Part shown: positions 7,770 through 18,564 of the stretch, one piece after another
How positions within the stretch are numbered: position 1 is the first letter of the stretch
Layout of the letters: every line of letters begins with the position of its first letter
Origin: Thiobacillus sp.
Lineage (GTDB): Bacteria; Pseudomonadota; Gammaproteobacteria; Burkholderiales; Thiobacillaceae
Direction of reading: 5' to 3'
DNA length: 33,917 nt
Assembly (NCBI GenBank): GCA_024709685.1
Contig: JANJWF010000148.1
Coordinates: 1-33,917 of the forward strand
The notes under the pieces: model-generated
What the model was told of the DNA's origin: nothing
Databases searched by the model: none
The model's input: the letters and a program-made list of their open reading frames with translations, nothing else
Made by a program: the position numbers and the translations under genes

Positions 7770-8168
7770 TCAGTCCAGCAGTACCAGCGCCCACACGACG
7801 GCGACGTTGACGAGCGCGATCATCACTGCGGCACTGCCCATGTCCTTGGCGCGTTTGATGAGATCGTGGTGCTCCAGGGAAATGCGGTCGACCGCGGCCT
7901 CGACCGCCGAATTCAGCAGTTCGACCACCAGTACGGCGAGCACGGCACCGACCATCAGTACGCGCTCGATCCCGGATTCGCCCAGGTAAAGCCCGAGAGG
8001 AATCAGCAGCAGCGCAAGGAAGACTTCCTGGCGGAACGCATCCTCGTACCGGAATGCGGCAAAGAGGCCGGCCCACGAGTAGCCTGCTGCGCTGATGATC
8101 CGCGCAAGCCCGGTCTTGCCCTTGAACGGACTTTCAGGCGGTGTGGGTGTGGCGTCGGGTCCGCTCAT
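7770..8168 (-). CDS. dgkA: Diacylglycerol kinase
   Basis: [32 protein letters not shown]...[15 protein letters not shown]...[10 protein letters not shown]. Confidence 0.9.
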
Positions 8169-9634
8169 ACCCTGGATGGCATCGATGCGGCGGGCTTGTA
8201 GGTGAGGTCGAGCTCGCGCGCGGCCTTGACGTCGTCCAGCCGCCGCACCGGCAGGTCGTAGGGCGCGCCCTTCACCAGACCGGGATTGCTCTCGGCCTCG
8301 TGCTTGATCTTGACCATGGCCTCGACGAAGGCGTCGAGCATCTCGCGGCTCTCGGTTTCGGTCGGCTCGATCAAGAGGCACTCCGGCACCAGCATCGGAA
8401 AGTAGGTGGTTGGCGCGTGGAAGCCATAGTCCAGCAGGCGTTTGGCGACGTCCATTGCCGACACGCCGGTGGCGTCCTTCAGCTTCTTCAGCGTGACGAT
8501 GAACTCGTGACTGGCGCGGCGGCTGGGGTAGGCGAGCTCGAAGCCGGCCTCGCGCAGCCGGGCCATCAGGTAGTTGGCATTGAGCGTGGCGTATTCGGCG
8601 ACGCGGTGCATGCCCTCGCCGCCCAGCATGCGCGCATACACATAGGCGCGCATCAGTACCCCGGCATTGCCCATGTTGGCGCTCATGCGGCCGATCGACT
8701 GCGGCAGGTCGGCCTCGGTCGCCAGCCGGTAGAAGCCGTTGTCATTCAGCACCAGCGGGATCGGCATGAAGGGCAGCAGCCGTTCCGCCACGCCCACTGG
8801 ACCCGCACCCGGTCCACCTCCGCCATGCGGGGTGGAGAAGGTTTTGTGCAAATTCATGTGGATGACGTCGAAGCCCATGTCGCCGGGGCGCACCTTGCCG
8901 AGGATGGCGTTGAGGTTGGCGCCGTCGTAGTACAGCAGGCCGCCGGCGTCGTGCACGATCTTCTGGATCTCGGCGATGGTTTTTTCGAATACGCCGAGCG
9001 TCGACGGGTTGGTCAGCATGAGGCCGGCGGTCTGCGGGCCAACGGCCGCTTTCAGTGCGCCGAGGTCGACGCTGCCGGTGGCATCCGTCGGGATTTCCCT
9101 GACCGTGTAGCCGCACATGGTGGCGGTCGCCGGGTTGGTGCCATGCGCCGCGTCCGGCACGATGATCTCGCGGCGCGCAGAATCACCCCGGGCGTCGTGG
9201 TACGCGCGGATCATCGCCACCCCGGCGAATTCGCCGTGCGCACCCGCCATCGGCGCCATCGACACGCCCGCCATGCCGGTGACGTCCTTCAGGATCTCCT
9301 GCAGCTCGAACATGCTGGCGAGAAAACCCTGGCCGGTGTCGTCCGGGCTTGCCGGGTGGCGCGCCAGATACTGCGGCAGCATCGCCAGCGAGTTGCACGC
9401 GCGCGGGTTGTACTTCATGGTGCACGAGCCGAGAGGATAGAACTGCGTGTCGATCGAGAAGTTCTTCTGGCTCAATCGCGTGTAGTGGCGCACCACGTCG
9501 AGCTCGGAGACTTCGGGCAGCGCGGGTGCGTCGCGGCGCCGCAGCGCGGCGGGCAGGTCGTCGAGGCTGCCGCCGGCGGCGGGCAGTTGGGCGGCAGCGG
9601 TGCGGCCGGGACGGGAATGGTCGAATATCAGCAT
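8165..9634 (-). CDS. gcvPB: Glycine dehydrogenase (decarboxylating) subunit 2
   Basis: [37 protein letters not shown] (PLP lysine motif). Confidence 0.95.
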
Positions 9635-9637
9635 GAC

Positions 9638-9750
9638 TTCAGGGGCCAGGATTCAGGGGTCAGGGATCAGGGAAGGACCCGGGCGCCTGATCAGTGTGCG
9701 CGGCGAAGCCGCACATCCCCTGAATCCTGACCCCTGGGCCCTGATCCCTA
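9638..9750. repeat. Heptad-arm intergenic inverted element, copy E1 (between tpx and gcvPB)
   Basis: Left arm CAGGGGC CAGGATT CAGGGGT CAGGGAT CAGGGAA; core with GTGCGCGGCGAAGCCGCAC; right arm CCCCTGA ATCCTGA CCCCTGG GCCCTGA TCCCTA; final CTA is the tpx stop (TAG on minus strand). Confidence 0.85.
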
Positions 9751-10239
9751 TTTCAAAGCAGCCAGCGCGGCCTCGTAGTTCGGCTCCTGCTTGATCTCGG
9801 GAACGAGTTCGGCGTGCAGCACCTTGTTGGCTTCGTCGAGCACGATCACCGCGCGCGCGGTGATGCCGGCGAGCGGGCCGCTCACGATGGCGACGCCGTA
9901 GTTCTTCATGAATTCGGCACCGCGCATGGTCGACAGCGTCACCACGTTGTTGGTGCTCTCGGCGCCGCAGAAGCGGTTCATCGCGAACGGCAGGTCGGCC
10001 GAGATGATGAGCACGGCGGTGTTGCCGACCGCGGCGTCGTTGAACTTCTTGGTCGAGATTGCGCACACCGGGGTGTCAAGGCTCGGCACGATGTTGAGGA
10101 TCTTCTTCTTGCCGGCGAAATCGGCAAGCGAGACGTCGGCGAGGTCCTTGTTCACCAGCTTGAAGTCGGGAACGGTGTCGCCGACCTTGGGGAAGGTGCC
10201 GGCGACGTCGATGGGGTTGCCTGCGAGGGTCACTGTCAT
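9748..10239 (-). CDS. tpx: Thiol peroxidase (Tpx-type peroxiredoxin)
   Basis: [29 protein letters not shown]...[17 protein letters not shown]...[12 protein letters not shown]. Confidence 0.93.
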
Positions 10240-10312
10240 GCTTGCTCTCCTTGAACCAATTCAATCAATCGTCGGGCGCGTGCACGATGGCGCGCCCGCT
10301 CATATGCTTCGG

Positions 10313-10597
10313 TCAGCTGCCCGGCTGGTCGAAGCGCGCGAGATGTTCGTCGATGTTCTCGCGCAGCATCTTCTCGTACTGATCCAGAAAGTAGGCGACC
10401 GCGGCTTCCTTCTCGGCGACCATCTGCTCTTTGCTGCCTGCCGCTGCCGCGATGACGAAGGCGTTGAAGCGCGAGGCGGCGAACAGCGCCGCTGCGCTGA
10501 CGCGACTGGGTTTCGCCTCGTTCAACTGGGTGTTGGCGAGCGCGATGTAGGCATCGGCCATGTCGTAGAACGGCTTGTCGCGCAGGACGTCGCTCAT
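10313..10597 (-). CDS. Small conserved protein, DUF3144-like
   Basis: MSDVLRDKPFYDMADAYIALANTQLNEAKPSRVSAAALFAASRFNAFVIAAAA...; family name is a recollection-level call. Confidence 0.65.
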   Translation of the reverse strand: MSDVLRDKPFYDMADAYIALANTQLNEAKPSRVSAAALFAASRFNAFVIAAAAGSKEQMVAEKEAAVAYFLDQYEKMLRENIDEHLARFDQPGS

Positions 10598-10607
10598 GCT
10601 CGCTCCC

Positions 10608-12017
10608 TCAGCTCTTGTACGCGCACGGCGGCGCCTCGCGCCGCTTCGACAGGATGCGCTCCATCTGCTGCGCATACTGATCGAGGTCGGCGCCCGTCTT
10701 GGTTTCGGTCACGCACACCAGGATCGCCTGGCCGAGTTCGGGATACCAGCCGGAAATGTCGAGGCCACCGAGGATGCCCTGCGCGCGCAGCGCGCGCAGC
10801 ACGTTCTTCGCACTGGTGCCTTTCAGCATGTCGTCGGAAAGCTTCAGCACGACTTCGTGGAAGAAGGGGCTGGAAAACGCGCGCGTCACGCCGGGAATCG
10901 CCGTCAGTTTTTCTGCGAGCGCCACGGTGTTGGCGTGGCTGTTTGATGCGACCTTTGCCAGGCCCTGCGGGCCGAGCAGCGCCATGTATTGCGTCGCCGC
11001 CGTGACGACCAGGCCCTGGTTGGTGCAGATGTTGGAGGTGGCTTTGGAGCGGCGGATGTGCTGCTCGCGCGCCTGCAGCGTCAGCGTGAAGCCGGGCTTG
11101 CCGTCGAGGTCGACGGTGCGGCCGACGAGGCGGCCGGGCATCTGGCGCACGAAGTCCTGGCGGCAGCACATGAAGCCGAAATAGGGTCCGCCCGAAGCCA
11201 TCGGTGCGCCGAGCGGCTGGCCTTCGCCCACCGCAATGTCGGCGCCCACGATCTGACTATTCTGGCCCCCCCACTGGCCGGGCGCCTCCAGCACCGCGAG
11301 CGTGGTCGGGTTGACCAGCGCGATCGCCAGCGCGCCTTTCTCGTGCGCCCAGTCGGTCATGGCGTGCACGTCTTCCAGCACGCCGAAGAAGTTGGGCTGC
11401 GGGATCACCAGGCCGGCGAAGCTTCCGGGGTCGGCCGGCAGCACCGTTTTCCCGGTAGCGGGATCGTAGTCGAGTTCGACCAGTTCGATGCCCTGGTTCT
11501 TCACCGTGGTGTCGACCACACGACGATAGATCGGGTGCACGCTCTTCGGCACCAGCACGCGGCGGGAGGTCTTGTGCGAGCGGACCGCCATCAGCACCGC
11601 TTCGGTCAGCGCGGACGCGCCGTCGTAAAGCGACGCGTTCGATACGTCGAGCCCGGTCAGCCGGGTCATCATGGTCTGGTATTCGTAGATCAGTTGCAGC
11701 GTGCCCTGGCTCGCCTCGGCCTGATAAGGCGTGTAAGCAGTATAGAACTCGCCACGCGTGGTGATCTGCCAGACCGCCGCCGGGATGTGGTGCTCGTAGA
11801 CGCCGGCGCCGATGAAATTGAACCAGAAGCCGTCCTGCGCGGCGCGTTCCTGCATCAACCGCGCCACCGCCATTTCCGGCAGGCCGTCCGGCACTTCACG
11901 CAGCTTGCCGGTTTTCAGCGCGGGCGGTATTTCGTCGAACAGGTCCTCGATGCGGGCGACGCCGATGGCGCCGAGCATGGCGGAGACGTCTTCTTCGGTG
12001 TGGGGAATGAAGGGCAT
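10608..12017 (-). CDS. gcvPA: Glycine dehydrogenase (decarboxylating) subunit 1
   Basis: [31 protein letters not shown]...[15 protein letters not shown]... Confidence 0.95.
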
Positions 12018-12021
12018 TTTG

Positions 12022-12130
12022 CTTAGGGGCCAGGAATTAGGGTCTAGGGACTAGGGGAGGCGGGGCCGAATTCAGGAACGCGGCGCAGCCGCACGTTCCC
12101 TAAATCCTAGCCCCTGGCTCCTGGCCCCTA
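12022..12130. repeat. Heptad-arm intergenic inverted element, copy E2 (between gcvH and gcvPA)
   Basis: Left arm TAGGGGC CAGGAAT TAGGGTC TAGGGAC TAGGGGA; core GCGGCGCAGCCGC; right arm CCCTAAA TCCTAGC CCCTGGC TCCTGGC CCCTA; terminal CTA = gcvH stop. Confidence 0.87.
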
Positions 12131-12517
12131 GTGGGCTTCCGACTCGACCAGCTTCTGATACGCCGCGGCGTCGAGCAGTACGGCGACGTCGGCCGGATTG
12201 GCTGGTTTCAGCTTGAACATCCATGCGGCGTAGGCGTCCTTGTTCACCGATTCGGGGCTGGCCTCGACGTCGCCGTTCGCTGCGATCACTTCGCCCGCGA
12301 CCGGGGCGTAGACGTCGGACGCGGCCTTCACCGATTCGACCACTGCGCATTCCTCGCCCTTGGCCAGCGTGCGGCCGGCCGCGGGATTCTCGATGAACAC
12401 CATGTCGCCCAGCAGGTCCTGCGCGTGGTGGGTGATGCCCACGGTCAGCGTGCCATCGGCTTCGATGCGCACCCATTCGTGGCTGGGGGTGTATTTGAGG
12501 TCAGCGGGGATGCTCAT
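12128..12517 (-). CDS. gcvH: Glycine cleavage system H protein
   Basis: [43 protein letters not shown]...[12 protein letters not shown] (lipoyl lysine). Confidence 0.96.
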
Positions 12518-12544
12518 TTGTGTGTTCCTGGTCGCGTTGTATTC

Positions 12545-12639
12545 CAGGGGGCAGGGATCAGGATTCAGGATTCAGGGAATGAACGGCCGCGCCGTGCTGT
12601 TTCCCCTGCTCCCTGGCCCCCGCTCCCTGGCCCCTCCTA
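12545..12639. repeat. Heptad-arm intergenic inverted element, copy E3 (between gcvT and gcvH)
   Basis: Left arm CAGGGGG CAGGGAT CAGGATT CAGGATT CAGGGAA; core ACGGCCGCGCCGT; right arm TCCCCTG CTCCCTG GCCCCCG CTCCCTG GCCCCTC CTA; terminal CTA = gcvT stop. Confidence 0.85.
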
Positions 12640-13731
12640 AATCAAAACCTTGCCGTTGCGCACGAACGGATATTTCACCACTCTGGCTTTCAGTTTCTTG
12701 TCGCGGATCTCGACTTCGACTTCCTCGCCCGGGGCGATGCCGAGCGGGATGCGTGCGAGCGCGATCGATTGCTGCAGTGTAGGCGAGAAGGTGCCGGAGG
12801 TGATCTCGCCGTCTCCGTTTCGGGTGTGGACTTTCTGGTGGCTGCGCAGGACGCCTTTGTCGAGCAGCAGGAGTCCGGCGAGTTGTTTCGTCACTTCGCT
12901 CTTTTCCAGCGCGGCGCGGCCGACGAAGTCGTGTGCGGCCTTCAGGTCGACGGTCCACGCCAGGCCGGATTCCAGCGGCGAGGTGGTTTCATCCATGTCC
13001 TGGCCGTACAGGTTCATTCCGGCTTCGAGCCGAAGGGTATCGCGCGCGCCGAGGCCGATCGGCTTGCCACCGGCTTGCATCAGCGCCTTCCAGAAGAAGG
13101 GCGCGGATTTCGCCGGCACCATCACCTCGAAGCCATCCTCGCCGGTGTAGCCGGTACGGGCAATGAACATCTCGCCCATCGCAACGGCATTGAAGGGCTT
13201 GAGGCTGGCGGTGATCTGGTCGACGCCGGGCAGCGCCTCGTTGAGCACGCGGGTGGCGTCCGGGCCCTGGATGGCGATCATTGCGAGGTCGCGGCGCGGG
13301 GTGAGGGTGAGGCCCATGCTCCAGTCCGCGTTCATCTTCTCCATCCATGCCAGATCCTTTTCCGCGGTGCCGGCGTTCACCACCAGGCGGAACCAGGATT
13401 CATCCATGAAATAGATGATGAGGTCGTCGATGACGCCGCCGGCCTCGTTGAGCATGCATGAATACAGCGCCTTGCCGGAGACCTGCAGCTTGTCGACGTT
13501 GTTCGCCACCAGCCGGCGCAGGAAAGGGCGCACGTTGGCGCCGCGGATGTCGAGCGGAAGCATGTGCGACACGTCGAACAGGCCGCAGCCGCCGCGCACG
13601 GTGTGGTGTTCCTCGATCTGCGAGCCGTAGTTGACCGGCATGTCCCAGCCGCCGAAATCGACCATCTTGGCGCCGATTTCGCGGTGGGTGGCATTGAGCG
13701 GAGTCTGTTTGAGCACTGCTTGATTCGTCAT
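12637..13731 (-). CDS. gcvT: Aminomethyltransferase (glycine cleavage T protein)
   Basis: [40 protein letters not shown]...[11 protein letters not shown]. Confidence 0.96.
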
Positions 13732-13745
13732 GGGGCAACCAAAAA

Positions 13746-13777
13746 TAAAAAGGGTGAAGCGTGGATTCGCTTCACCC
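13746..13777 (-). terminator. Rho-independent terminator hairpin between glycine riboswitch and gcvT
   Basis: Minus strand gggtgaagcg-aatcca-cgcttcaccc-ttttta: 10-bp perfect stem plus U-run, just before the gcvT ATG. Confidence 0.85.
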
Positions 13778-13972
13778 CTCTGTCCTTGGTACCTGAGAGA
13801 TTACGGCCGCTACGCGGGCCGCTGCCCCTTCGGTGGCAGTTTCATTGGCTTTGTTCAAAACCAGCACTGCGCTCTCCAGAGTGTTCCGGCTGTTGCGGTC
13901 CTTTTGCCTGAGCGATTCCGGGTGGGTTACGCCTTCGGCGGCATGCGGTCCATGCGCTCTCCCGCAACGGGA
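13778..13972 (-). ncRNA. Tandem (two-aptamer) glycine riboswitch
   Basis: Minus strand GCGGGAGAGCGC...GCCGAAGGCGTAACCC...ATCGCTCAGGCAAAAGGACCGC...ACTCTGGAGAGCGC...CCACCGAAGGGG...AATCTCTCAGGTACCAAGGACAGAGG, both aptamers recognisable, upstream of gcvT. Confidence 0.93.
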
Positions 13973-14030
13973 ACGCGCACTATACCGAAGAAGCGCCGGG
14001 CCGGCCAGCCTTGCGTATAGGCCCGCCTGA

Positions 14031-15047
14031 TCAATAGCTTAGCTGCAGGTCGAAGCCCATGGGCGCGAGATCGTGCACGGCGAGCGGCAGGCTGAGCGGC
14101 TGTTCGCTGAGCGGGGGGATGCCCTCGGCAATGCGGTGGGCGTCGCCGAGGTATTCGCTCGGCGCGAAGCTGCGCCGCGCCAGCGGCCGGTTGCGCTGAT
14201 CGGTGAGGCTGAGCACCAGTACCGGCCAGGCCTGGGCCTGGCCGGCGCGATTGCCGAGGGTGAGGGTGAGCTTCAGGCGGCCGCTGGCCTCTGTCTCCAG
14301 GTCGGACCCCACGATCCGCAGCAGCGCCAGGTTTTTCGGCAATGAGAGCGTGCAGCCGAGAAGGGCGCACATCCGTTCGAGCAGGGGGCGGGTCTGCGGC
14401 AGCTGACTGACGAGGGTGTCGCGGAGGAAGTAGGCGGACTGCGCAACCAGCAGAACCGCCAGCAGCACGCCGGCACTGCCCCATGCCCACGATCCGCTGT
14501 GCCGGGGCGCGGGCGGGATGTAGGAGTTGGCTGGCTCGGGGGAGGCATATTCGGGCGGATTGTATTCGACCCGGGTTACGGGAGCGCTGACGGCGGCCGG
14601 CTCGTGCGAGTATGGCGGCGGGTACATCAGCGGCATCGCAGACGGGCCGGACGCGGGCGCCGCGTGAATCTGCGGCATCGGACCGAAGTCGTCCGGCACC
14701 GGGATATCGGGGTCGATGATGATGATGGAGGTCAGGTCGAGCGACGTCTCGCGCTGGACAATGCCGACAGGGGGCCCGCTGGTCTGTGGCGTGTTCTCGG
14801 CAGGGGCAGTCGTCTCGGCGGGCTGCGCGGCACCCGGCGAGATGATTCCAGCCGGCGTCGGCTCGACGTTTTCCGTGGGTGCGGATGCGGCTGGCAGCGG
14901 TGAGCCGTCTTCCATGAGGAGGCTCGGGCGTGCATCGAAAGCGTTGCCACACACGCCGCACTGGACCCATCCCTGCGCGGCGTCCAACTGGTCCGCATGG
15001 AGGCGGAAGATGCTGGTGCAGTGCGGGCAGGTGGTGCGGTAGTTCAC
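14031..15047 (-). CDS. Zinc-ribbon (MJ0042-type) and DUF3426-like membrane protein; GTG start overlapping prmA stop
   Basis: VNYRTTCPHCTSIFRLHADQLDAAQGWVQCGVCGNAFDA (CxxC...CxxC), one TM segment, C-terminal domain; GTGA overlap with prmA. Confidence 0.8.
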   Translation of the reverse strand: MNYRTTCPHCTSIFRLHADQLDAAQGWVQCGVCGNAFDARPSLLMEDGSPLPAASAPTENVEPTPAGIISPGAAQPAETTAPAENTPQTSGPPVGIVQRETSLDLTSIIIIDPDIPVPDDFGPMPQIHAAPASGPSAMPLMYPPPYSHEPAAVSAPVTRVEYNPPEYASPEPANSYIPPAPRHSGSWAWGSAGVLLAVLLVAQSAYFLRDTLVSQLPQTRPLLERMCALLGCTLSLPKNLALLRIVGSDLETEASGRLKLTLTLGNRAGQAQAWPVLVLSLTDQRNRPLARRSFAPSEYLGDAHRIAEGIPPLSEQPLSLPLAVHDLAPMGFDLQLSY

Positions 15048-15934
15048 TGTTTGACGCCGGCCAGACGCACCCACCCCTCGTCGATCTCGGGCGAGTCGAA
15101 AACGAACCAGTCGCGGTATACCTTCATTACGTCTTCGGCCTGCTCGGCCAGAATGCCGGACAGTACCAGCTGCCCGCGCGGGCGCACCCGGCCCGCGAGC
15201 AATGGGGCCATGCCCTTGAGCGGGTTGGTGAGGATATTGGCGACGACGACATCGTATTGTCCGGGTGCAAGTTCGCCGGGGAGGCAGAAGCGCGCGGTCA
15301 CGCCATTGAGTTCGGCATTGTCGCGCGAGGCGGTGACCGCCTGCGCGTCGATATCGACGCCGTCGACCCGTGCCGCGCCGAGCTTGGCGGCGGCGATGGC
15401 GAGGATGCCGGAGCCGCAGCCATAGTCGAGCAAGGTCTCGCCGCCTTTCAGGTTTTCGTCGAGCCAGCGCAGGCAAAGCCGGGTGGTCGGATGGCTGCCG
15501 GTGCCGAAGGCCAGGCCGGGGTCGAGCTTGAGGTTGATCGCGCGGTTGTCGGGCGCATCGTGCCAGGTCGGCACGATCCACAGCCGCGGCGAGATCGGGA
15601 TGGGATCGAACTGCGCCTGGGTGAGGCGCACCCAGTCCTGCTCGGCCACGGTTTCGACCGTATACTCGGCGGGAGCAGGAATGCCCGCCTGTTCCGCAGC
15701 GGCCGCCAGCACCGCCGCCACATCTGCGTCTGCCTCCAGCAGCACCATCGCGATGCTATGCGGCCACAGTTCGGCCGTCGGATGGTCCGGTTCACCGAAC
15801 AGCGGGGTCTCGTCCACCGTGCCGGCGTCGGCGTCCTCCAGCGACACCGACAGCGCGCCGGCTTCCATCAGCGCGTCGGACAGCGGCTCGGCCTGCTTGG
15901 AATCGACGAGGATGCGGACGGATTGCCAGGGCAT
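15044..15934 (-). CDS. prmA: Ribosomal protein L11 methyltransferase
   Basis: MPWQSVRILVDSKQAEPLSDALMEAGALSVS...LDYGCGSGILAIAAAKLGA...VVANILTNPL. Confidence 0.94.
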   Translation of the reverse strand: MPWQSVRILVDSKQAEPLSDALMEAGALSVSLEDADAGTVDETPLFGEPDHPTAELWPHSIAMVLLEADADVAAVLAAAAEQAGIPAPAEYTVETVAEQDWVRLTQAQFDPIPISPRLWIVPTWHDAPDNRAINLKLDPGLAFGTGSHPTTRLCLRWLDENLKGGETLLDYGCGSGILAIAAAKLGAARVDGVDIDAQAVTASRDNAELNGVTARFCLPGELAPGQYDVVVANILTNPLKGMAPLLAGRVRPRGQLVLSGILAEQAEDVMKVYRDWFVFDSPEIDEGWVRLAGVKQ

Positions 15935-15943
15935 GGATAAAAA

Positions 15944-16027
15944 CCTAGGGGCTAGGATATAGGGGTAAGGGAAGGTGCAGCGCCGGGTCCAATCCCTGGC
16001 TTCTAGATCCTAAATCCTGTCCCCTCA
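15944..16027. repeat. Heptad-arm intergenic inverted element, copy E4 (between accC and prmA)
   Basis: Left arm CTAGGGG CTAGGAT ATAGGGG TAAGGGA; right arm TCCCTGG CTTCTAG ATCCTAA ATCCTGT CCCCTCA; shorter core; terminal TCA = accC stop (TGA). Confidence 0.78.
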
Positions 16028-17374
16028 AGCTTTTTCCTCCGCCAGCTTGTGCTCCAGGTAATGAATGCTGGTGCCACCGGCGATGAAGGCGGCGTCGTGC
16101 ATCAGCTCCTGGTGCAGCGGGATGTTGCTCTGGATGCCTTCGATGACCATTTCCATCAGCGCGCCGCGCATGCGGGCGATGGCCTGGTCGCGGGTGTCGC
16201 CGTAGGCGATCAGCTTGCCGATCATCGAATCGTAGTGCGGCGGCACGTAATAGCCGTGATACACGTGCGAGTCGACGCGGATGCCGGGGCCGCCGGGTGC
16301 GTGGTAATTGGTGAGCTTGCCGGGGCTGGGGACGAAGGTCGTCGGGTGCTCGGCGTTGATGCGGCATTCGACGGCGTGGCCGCGGAAGCGGATGTCCTTC
16401 TGCTGGAACGGCAGCTTCTCGCCGGCCGCGACACGGATCTGCGTCTGCACGATGTCGATCCCGGTGATCATCTCGGTGACGGGGTGCTCGACCTGCACGC
16501 GGGTGTTCATCTCAATGAAATAGAATTCGCCGTTCTCGTACAGGAACTCGAAGGTGCCGGCGCCCCGATAGCCGATCTTGCGGCAGGCCTCGGCGCAGCG
16601 CTCGCCGATCTTGTCCCTGAGCTTGGGGTCGAGCCCGGGCGCCGGCGCCTCTTCCAGAACCTTCTGGTGACGGCGCTGCATCGAGCAGTCGCGCTCGCCC
16701 AGGTGCACCGCGTTGCCGTGCTCGTCGGCGAGGATCTGGATTTCGATGTGGCGTGGTGTCTGCAGGAATTTTTCCATGTAGACCATGGGATTGCCGAAGG
16801 CGGCCCCGGCTTCGGTCTTGGTCATGGTCACCGCATTCAGCAGCGCGGCCTCGGTGTGCACCACGCGCATGCCGCGGCCGCCGCCACCGCCAGCGGCTTT
16901 GATGATGACCGGGTAGCCGATATTGCGTGCGATCTTGAGGGTTTCTTCGGGATCGTCCGGCAGGGCGCCGTCGGAGCCGGGCACGCACGGCACCTTGGCG
17001 TCGATCATGGCCTGCTTGGCGGCGACCTTGTCGCCCATCAGACGGATGTTGTCGGGGCGCGGGCCGATGAAGGTGAAGCCGGACGATTCGACGCGCTCGG
17101 CGAAGTTGGCGTTTTCCGACAGAAAGCCGTAGCCGGGATGGATCGCCTCGGCGTCGGTGACTTCGGCGGCGGCGATGATCGACGGCACGTGCAGATAGCT
17201 CTGCGAGGACGGCGCCGGCCCGATGCATACCGATTCGTCGGCCAGCTTGACATACTTCGCGTCGCGGTCGGCCTCGGAATACACCACGACCGTCTTGATA
17301 CCCATTTCGCGGCAGGCGCGCTGGATTCGCAGGGCGATTTCGCCGCGGTTGGCGATCAGGATTTTTTCAAACAT
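16025..17374 (-). CDS. accC: Biotin carboxylase subunit of acetyl-CoA carboxylase
   Basis: [42 protein letters not shown]... Confidence 0.96.
17340..17374. repeat. 35-bp direct repeat, copy A (native 5' end of accC)
   Basis: tcgccgcggttggcgatcaggattttttcaaacat, identical to 17461-17495. Confidence 0.95.
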
Positions 17375-17460
17375 AGGAGGTCTCCGCGGCAAAATCGCCC
17401 TGACGGCCTGCGGCCGTTGCGCGTTTTGGCTTCGCCGCTGCGCTGCCTTGCGGCAGCTGG
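17375..17460. repeat. 86-bp REP-like double-hairpin segment between the two 35-bp repeats
   Basis: acggcc-tgc-ggccgt and gctgcc-ttgc-ggcagc hairpins; flanked by identical 35-bp direct repeats. Confidence 0.6.
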
Positions 17461-17495
17461 TCGCCGCGGTTGGCGATCAGGATTTTTTCAAACAT
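17461..17495. repeat. 35-bp direct repeat, copy B (duplicated 5' end of accC)
   Basis: Identical to 17340-17374; offset of 121 bp. Confidence 0.95.
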
Positions 17496-17498
17496 GTC

Positions 17499-17614
17499 TG
17501 TAGGGGCTAGGAGATAGGAGCTAGGGGCTAGGGTTGGAGTTGCTTCACGGATTGCGGTGCACCGCGTGCCGAGTGATTTCCCTGATTCCTAACTCCTAAT
17601 TCCTAGCCCCTGCC
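17499..17614. repeat. Heptad-arm intergenic inverted element, copy E5 (between accB and accC)
   Basis: Left arm TAGGGGC TAGGAGA TAGGAGC TAGGGGC TAGGGTT; core with GCGGTGCACCGC palindrome; right arm CCCTGAT TCCTAAC TCCTAAT TCCTAGC CCCTGCC. Confidence 0.87.
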
Positions 17615-17618
17615 TTTC

Positions 17619-18065
17619 TCAAGCAATAACAAACAGCGGCTCGCCGTATTCGACCGGCTGGCCGTTTTCGACCAGGATGGCCTTGATGACGCCGCCCTGA
17701 TCCGCTTCGATTTCGTTCAGCAGCTTCATCGCTTCGATGATGCACAGCGTGTCGCCGGCATTCACGCTCTGGCCGACTTCGGCAAAGTTCTTGGAGCCGG
17801 GAGCCGGGGCACGGTAGAAGGTGCCGACCATGGGCGAGCGCACGATGTGGCCCTCGGGCATCGCTTCTTCGGCCGGGGCTGCCGCGGTGGGCGCAGCAGC
17901 GGGTGCAGGCGCCTGCATCATCTGCGGCGCGTGCGCCATCATCATGGGGGTGCCGGCGATGCTCTTGGCGATGCGGACCTTTTCTTCGCCTTCAGTGATT
18001 TCAAGTTCGGCGATGCCGGAAGCTTCGACCAGATCAATGAGCTTTTTCAGTTTTCTGAGATCCAT
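17619..18065 (-). CDS. accB: Biotin carboxyl carrier protein of acetyl-CoA carboxylase
   Basis: [32 protein letters not shown]...[15 protein letters not shown] (biotinyl lysine motif EAMKLLNE). Confidence 0.96.
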
Positions 18066-18564
18066 GGGGAGTCCTGTTTTGCAGATAGCGCAGCGCGTAT
18101 TCCAGCGCCAGTTCGTAGCCGTGTGCGCCGAGACCGGATACCACGCCGACGGCGAGGTCGGAAAAGTACGAATGGTGGCGGAACGGCTCGCGCGCGTAGA
18201 TGTTGGAAAGGTGAACTTCGACGAAAGGAATGGCAGTGGCAGCCAGGGCATCGCGCAGGGCGACGCTGGTGTGGGTGTGACCCGCCGGGTTGATGATGAT
18301 GAAGTCGACATGGTCGCGCGCAGCCTGGTGGATGCGGTCGATCAGGGCGCCTTCGTGGTTGTGCTGAAAGGTTTCGACCTGTGCGCCGGCTGTTTCGCCG
18401 CGGCTGACCAGTGAGCGGTTGACGTCATCGAGGGTGGCAAGACCGTAATGCTTGGGTTCGCGGCTGCCCAGCAGGTTCAGGTTGGGGCCGTGCAGAACCA
18501 GCACGTGCGGGTGCAGGCTGGGGACCGTTTTCGCTGGCGTGCGGCTGGTTCGCTTAGTCGTCAT
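18034..18564 (-). CDS. aroQ: Type II 3-dehydroquinate dehydratase
   Basis: [21 protein letters not shown]...[16 protein letters not shown]...[17 protein letters not shown]...[17 protein letters not shown]. Confidence 0.95.

Follow-up and report, generated by a model that had tools for sequence, protein, structure and literature searches.

Five intergenic gaps of the window, a 33,917-nt contig (JANJWF010000148.1) from a Thiobacillus metagenome-assembled genome (MAG) of 2.55 Mb and 79% completeness, are filled by elements of one architecture, in which a core separates a G-rich array of 7-nt units from a second array that is C-rich and inverted. At orthologous gene junctions of other species, these elements are replaced as blocks without phylogenetic signal, the two arms of an element mostly share the same kind of unit, and the G-rich arm always precedes the C-rich one. 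The elements are interpreted here as exchangeable intercistronic hairpin cassettes, which would evolve by slippage of the heptads and recombination between the arms and which probably act in cis on polycistronic mRNA. The probability of this interpretation is estimated at slightly below one half (0.48).

Architecture and periodicity of the elements

An automatic search, in which AGG arrays had to be followed by CCT arrays at a 7-nt step, recovered exactly five paired arrays across the 33.9 kb. They correspond to the five gaps named in an earlier note, which had been made from the letters of the window alone and had also found no further copy in the rest of the window; direct inspection confirmed the architecture at these positions:

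Element 1: 9638-9750, no strand; tpx/gcvPB gap, CAGG flavour; G-rich arm 9639-9672, core 9673-9716 with palindrome GTGCGCGGCGAAGCCGCAC, C-rich arm 9717-9749
Element 2: 12022-12131, no strand; gcvH/gcvPA gap, TAGG flavour; G-rich arm 12023-12057, core with GCGGCGCAGCCGC, C-rich arm approx. 12097-12131
Element 3: 12544-12639, no strand; gcvT/gcvH gap, CAGG flavour; G-rich arm 12544-12578, core, C-rich arm approx. 12602-12638
Element 4: 15944-16027, no strand; accC/prmA gap, TAGG flavour, weakest hairpin; G-rich arm approx. 15945-15972, short core, C-rich arm approx. 15993-16026
Element 5: 17499-17614, no strand; accB/accC gap, TAGG flavour; G-rich arm 17500-17534, core with CGGTGCACCG, C-rich arm approx. 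17579-17613

Each element fills its gap: it starts approximately at the stop codon of one gene, ends shortly before the start codon of the next and usually comes within approximately 20 nt of the genes on both sides.

The periodicity is far above that of shuffled sequence, a comparison on which the earlier note had staked the family. Eight AGG or CCT arrays of at least four units at a 7-nt step were counted in the window, compared to a mean of 0.01 in dinucleotide shuffles and of 0.0 in shuffles of the five gaps alone. Periods from 4 to 15 other than 7 gave no arrays, save one at 14, a harmonic of 7, and the array counts of other trinucleotides were nowhere near those of AGG and CCT. Chance and GC-rich composition are ruled out by these controls. 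In a sequence-agnostic scan of the comparison loci (one chromosomal region, mostly from MAGs), 100 inverted tandem arrays were found, 77 of them with period 7, and none in the block-shuffled control. Tandem Repeats Finder at a low threshold detects parts of most arms, never the paired architecture; the expectation that ordinary repeat finders could miss the element applies to the pair and not to the single arms.

The arms consist mostly of four to five units, in which AGG is constant and the preceding base (C, T, G or A) defines the flavour. Within the genus, AGG is the sole invariant part and the remaining positions drift, in line with the proposal of one family in which the 7-nt period and the AGG/CCT cores are conserved and the full sequence is not. 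The restriction to a pyrimidine in front of AGG was too narrow, since all four flavours occur in the genus. CAGGATT, CAGGGGT, CAGGGAT and TAGGGGC are the commonest units. In 109 of 120 elements, one and the same flavour predominates in the two arms, and agreement at the level of units (0.637) exceeds both the mean (0.336) and the maximum (0.418) of 2000 permutations. Since agreement at the other positions depends weakly on register, the arms are alike as unit populations more than as a strict base-by-base stem. Perfect single-unit arrays which appear to have run away, such as CCCCTAG (>10 times, L056) and CCCTGAC (>10 times, L033), fit slippage.

Units without AGG were also retrieved by the sequence-agnostic scan, namely CGCGAAG, GTGACAAA, TTGGCAG, GGGAAAC, CGGTGAG, AGAGGACA and GGGATTC. 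CGCGAAG represents a second inverted short-repeat family with units spaced 9-10 nt, found at similar Thiobacillus junctions (L039, L046, L053, L057) and in 19 of 40 genus genomes. In three loci from other genera of the family (L070, L075, L078), 8-nt units AGAGGACA / TGTCCTCT are located at gcv junctions, again with the purine arm first.

The composition of the units bears on two explanations that rely on the repeated G-tract. A G-quadruplex (G4) or i-motif element, as proposed for heptamers of Xanthomonas and Nostoc, would account for the regular G-tracts, one per 7 nt, of the G-rich arms. Xanthomonas oligonucleotides of similar kind form G4 in vitro, and no function of the Xanthomonas repeats was demonstrated (PMC4692102). 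Here, however, GGG is present in 665 of 1147 units and four or more G3 tracts in only 53 of 240 arms, GG being the constant part, and the CGCGAAG, GTGACAAA and TTGGCAG units at shared junctions are incapable of a three-tetrad G4, which makes this explanation very improbable. Least likely of all those considered is an array bound by a protein that recognizes AGG at 7-nt intervals in DNA or RNA, each of the inverted arms offering one face for docking. The invariance of AGG in the genus speaks for it, but unrelated units replace AGG at shared junctions and no candidate protein was identified.

The polarity of the elements was without exception in the samples scanned. The purine (G-rich) arm came first in 120 AGG elements and the pyrimidine arm in none; of 32 non-AGG arrays none was pyrimidine-first, and four mixed arrays resemble other palindromes or coding sequence of a repetitive nature. 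The purine-first rule reads identically on both strands, since the element is inverted. The reversed pattern had no match in 399 Burkholderiales genomes, 45 of which were matched by the forward pattern.

Replacement at orthologous junctions

At the five orthologous junctions, the cassette, assigned to a type by simple rules, differs wholesale among species. Loci with 91-95% identical coding DNA carry wholly different cassettes at identical junctions; L026 and L090, for instance, share 94.5% identity across gcvT-gcvPA, and their cassette types agree at accB-accC and differ at the other four junctions. The numbers of type changes on a gene tree built from gcvT, gcvH, gcvPA and gcvPB, compared to shuffled labels (16 versus 14.4, 15 versus 14.2, 12 versus 11.9, 5 versus 5.7 and 5 versus 4.6), gave no phylogenetic signal of cassette type. 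Flanking coding DNA differed with cassette type by at most 0.017, and accC-prmA alone reached a permutation p of 0.04. The tpx-gcvPB cassette of L074, which belongs to another lineage (gcvPA 70.7% amino acid sequence identity), is 92% identical to that of L032, compared to 87% over the final 120 nt of tpx and 71% over the initial 120 nt of gcvPB. Where cassettes are at least 80% identical, the nearest 30 nt of the flanks are slightly more similar (0.03-0.05) at most junctions, as would be expected of an exchange with very short flanks.

Between L028 and L032, the core and inner units of the gcvT-gcvH element are reversed (local score 65 reversed versus 36.5 forward). Four such pairs were found at this junction, and both orientations occur. 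Exchange between the arms would produce such core inversions and would also keep the arms alike; it is the process proposed for the spread of one flavour across the two arms under continued drift of the exact sequence. In the interpretation as exchangeable cassettes, the 7-nt units would multiply inside the cassette by slippage, arm-arm exchange would homogenize them, and the cassette at a given junction would be swapped as a block between species by horizontal, presumably homologous, exchange that begins and ends at the stop and start codons or very close to them.

A non-autonomous mobile element, suggested as one possibility in the earlier note, would resemble a miniature inverted-repeat transposable element (MITE) or a REPIN, i.e. 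a hairpin derived from repetitive extragenic palindromic (REP) sequences, and be moved by a hairpin-acting transposase. Dispersed copies do share cores such as GCGGCC-NNN-GGCCGC at different places, cassettes move horizontally, empty and occupied junctions exist in close species (L073 and L069), and Y1 transposase-family genes are encoded in 33 of 40 genus genomes. However, there is no constant terminal sequence, with ends differing freely among copies and species, and the constant terminal inverted repeats of a MITE are absent. The near-identical cassettes compared are located at one and the same junction, and no target duplication can be defined. A Y1 or REP-associated tyrosine transposase (RAYT) as driver was rejected since copy number does not agree with it: approximately 20 matches were counted in genome G020, in which no PF01797 gene was found at 87% genome completeness. 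Horizontal cassette exchange is supported; a classical transposon is improbable.

Distribution and relation to known repeats

Pattern matches were found elsewhere in the host genome, with none for the reversed control, and in a sample of 60 genomes they occurred in most of the 35 from the same genus and in one other family, so that copies do exist beyond the window, as a scan of the genome and its relatives suggested in the earlier note was meant to reveal. The gcvPA of the window shares as much as 92% identity with its counterparts in Thiobacillus MAGs. Presence is patchy (27 of the 60 relatives), with zero matches in several complete genomes. The 45 matched Burkholderiales genomes belong to 26 of 158 genera. 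In a phylum-wide sample, 13 of 399 genomes from 9 of 213 genera were matched, some outside the class and including units such as AGGCAGT and AGGTTCT. These genome-wide counts rest on pattern searches, and the gene calls around the additional elements on a crude codon score.

Matches extend beyond cellular genomes: IMG/VR contigs, which are fragmentary and may comprise prophages, yielded 46 stretches of the CAGG type and 32 of the TAGG type. A 29-kb viral contig (L164, IMGVR_UViG_3300010379_000036) harbors about a dozen elements, all of the CAGG type, in the gaps of a structural cluster encoding major capsid protein, head-tail connector, tail protein and tape-measure protein. No relatives of this tailed-phage contig were found at the DNA level, and its capsid matches did not exceed 34% identity. 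L149 and L184 were grouped with L164, and closely similar stretches are present in other metagenomes. Another viral contig carries two elements together with a terminase large subunit gene. On a further contig, L203, which represents a gene-transfer-agent-like cluster, TAGG-type elements (506-564, 923-998 and 9653-9711) are located beside gene-transfer-agent-like tail genes.

Taken broadly, the elements belong to the inverted G-rich heptameric repeats of Xanthomonas. Rehm et al. (2015) described G-rich heptameric repeats with the unit GGGNATC in Xanthomonas and GGGGA(C/T)T in Nostoc (PMC4692102). In Xanthomonas, 70-75 inverted pairs per genome are convergent, i.e. with the G arm first, and the repeats lie near stop codons on the coding strand and near start codons on the non-coding strand (PMC4692102). 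Common to both are tandem 7-nt G-rich units, intergenic and dispersed, many at places conserved between species, and the G-rich arm leading the inverted pair. In contrast to Xanthomonas, the unit is NAGGRNY, with four flavours coupled across the arms; neither a GGGANTN unit containing GGGAATC nor a bias towards four units whose G3 tracts are intact was seen here. A GC palindrome conserved in many cores, core inversion and block replacement by unrelated units further distinguish the present elements, which occur in Betaproteobacteria and phage. In Geobacter metallireducens, the paired repeat sites of classes 1-3, interpreted as sites of a global regulator, likewise consist of tandem units (GTTGCTYN octamers or MTYCTGA heptamers) on opposite strands at variable distance, but the units are different, and the account of these sites contains no turnover analysis (PMC2700814). 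The TAACTGA repeats of Beggiatoaceae are also 7-nt and intergenic, mostly upstream of start codons, but consist of one fixed heptamer in direct orientation (one inverted exception in 170 sets; PMC4679880).

REP and REPIN sequences are, like the present elements, dispersed intergenic palindromes with a GC-rich hairpin core, but lack tandem heptads, whereas here neither a fixed REP head nor Y1/RAYT dependence was seen. Clustered regularly interspaced short palindromic repeats (CRISPR) were rejected since the elements are degenerate contiguous 7-nt units and not identical repeats with unique spacers. The earlier exclusion of REP, enterobacterial repetitive intergenic consensus (ERIC) and CRISPR layouts stands. 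The impression that the elements resemble nothing known does not, as the Xanthomonas repeats (PMC4692102) and, judging by the description of the sites, those of G. metallireducens (PMC2700814) are the same kind of object. In the open literature, nothing relevant was found on this element in Thiobacillus, nor a description of arm coupling, block replacement or core inversion. New relative to earlier reports are the purine-first polarity without exception, the coupling of flavour across both arms, the core inversion between species, the unrelated unit families at one gene junction in different species, the near-identical cassettes next to diverged genes and the elements between phage structural genes.

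Gene context and a possible role in mRNA

The genes adjoining the elements in the window are all encoded on the minus strand:

gcvPB: 8165-9634, minus strand, NCBIfam NF003346
tpx: 9748-10239, minus strand, NCBIfam NF001808, stop codon inside element 1
gcvPA: 10608-12017, minus strand, NCBIfam NF001696
gcvH: 12128-12517, minus strand, TIGR00527, stop codon inside element 2
gcvT: 12637-13731, minus strand, TIGR00528
prmA: 15044-15934, minus strand, TIGR00406
accC: 16025-17374, minus strand, TIGR00514
accB: 17619-18089, minus strand, TIGR00531

Transcription of this strand proceeds in the order accB, accC, prmA and gcvT, gcvH, gcvPA, tpx, gcvPB. An Rfam 15 scan of 9000-18500 gave only two glycine riboswitch aptamers above the gathering score and no match for the elements, in agreement with the absence of a catalogued RNA family. 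The aptamers are arranged in tandem upstream of gcvT (13770-13885 and 13886-13974, minus strand), so that the gcv cluster carrying the heptad elements is riboswitch-controlled. At accB-accC, an 87-nt insert (17375-17461) is bordered on both sides by a 34-nt sequence from the 5' end of accC, repeated in direct orientation (17341-17374 and 17462-17495), which results in two copies of the accC start. The insert looks like a separate small insertion that duplicated its target; a comparable insert is present at accB-accC in L024, L026, L090 and L054.

The capacity of the copies to form hairpins, as predicted earlier, was supported by calculated minimum free energies of the RNA, which lie between -53 and -69 kcal/mol for all window elements but one (-69.1 for element 1 on the sense, i.e. 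minus, strand) and amount to -28 for the exception, element 4 between accC and prmA. Such strong folds abutting both genes fit an intercistronic hairpin in a polycistronic mRNA. Intrinsic terminators were rejected, as the C-rich arm is followed by a start codon within a few nucleotides and a T tract is lacking. The cassette, occupying the junction from one stop codon to the next start codon, would most likely form in cis a strong hairpin able to shift register, which would protect or attenuate the message and lead to unequal expression of the neighbouring genes; the number of units would be a setting that evolution can adjust. The proteins of glycine cleavage are required in unequal amounts. 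The mRNA processing or stabilisation envisaged in the earlier note is possible.

Several results weigh against this interpretation. In 144 of 222 gaps, the fold of the sense strand is less stable than that of the antisense strand, and A.C mismatches outnumber G.U pairs on the sense strand, a sign opposite to the one expected; selection at the RNA level is therefore unsupported. The neighbouring genes are oriented in the same direction in 42 cases, convergently in 5 and divergently in 3, compared to a local baseline of 182:19:19. The location of all copies in same-strand clusters is consequently true of the window, but is no enrichment over the local baseline. Owing to the weaker sense fold and the lack of orientation enrichment, the mRNA role is held with moderate to low confidence. 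Matching of variable positions in mirror register is weak (0.55/0.58 versus approx. 0.47/0.53), for which reason strict in-register maintenance of a stem was not demonstrated and was dropped as a candidate. Homologous exchange is only weakly visible, as the hitch-hiking of the flanks is small and short. Finally, the element is dispensable, since some species lack it at a junction: L068 and L073 have a TGATATG junction with 1 nt between stop and start. Compact element-free junctions (1-11 nt between stop and start) occur in species too diverged to define an insertion site.

The main rival to the mRNA role is a neutral or selfish heptad satellite without function, which would arise by 7-nt slippage and fold-back copying as an intergenic microsatellite and be tolerated only where no gene or promoter is broken. 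The patchy presence, the turnover without phylogenetic signal and the missing RNA-level pairing signal all agree with it. Heptamers are moreover reported to be the commonest long simple repeats in most repeat-rich genomes, for which polymerase slippage was proposed (Mrazek 2007, as cited in PMC4679880). An exclusive purine-first polarity and unrelated unit families repeatedly filling one junction across genera are, however, not expected of neutral repeats, and their accumulation in a phage genome would be odd for neutral bulk, which leaves the satellite doubtful. Rated somewhat lower still, and thus unlikely, is a more general form of the cassette interpretation: a sequence-free class in which the architecture (short-period purine arm, core, inverted pyrimidine arm) and the stop-to-start address would be kept and an arbitrary unit replaced wholesale. 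Such cassettes would move among species, genera and phages via dedicated or recombination-based exchange bounded by stop and start codons and would tune the expression of their neighbours.

Heptameric repeats in bacteria have been noticed for almost twenty years, with their origin and role not agreed upon. The shared flavour of the arms, the purine-first polarity and the phylogeny-independent block replacement are constraints against which any explanation can be tested, and the density of elements in the phage structural-gene cluster offers a compact experimental system. If the cassettes tune operon stoichiometry, they would constitute a fast-evolving layer of gene control, which alignment-based methods miss because sequence is not the conserved property.

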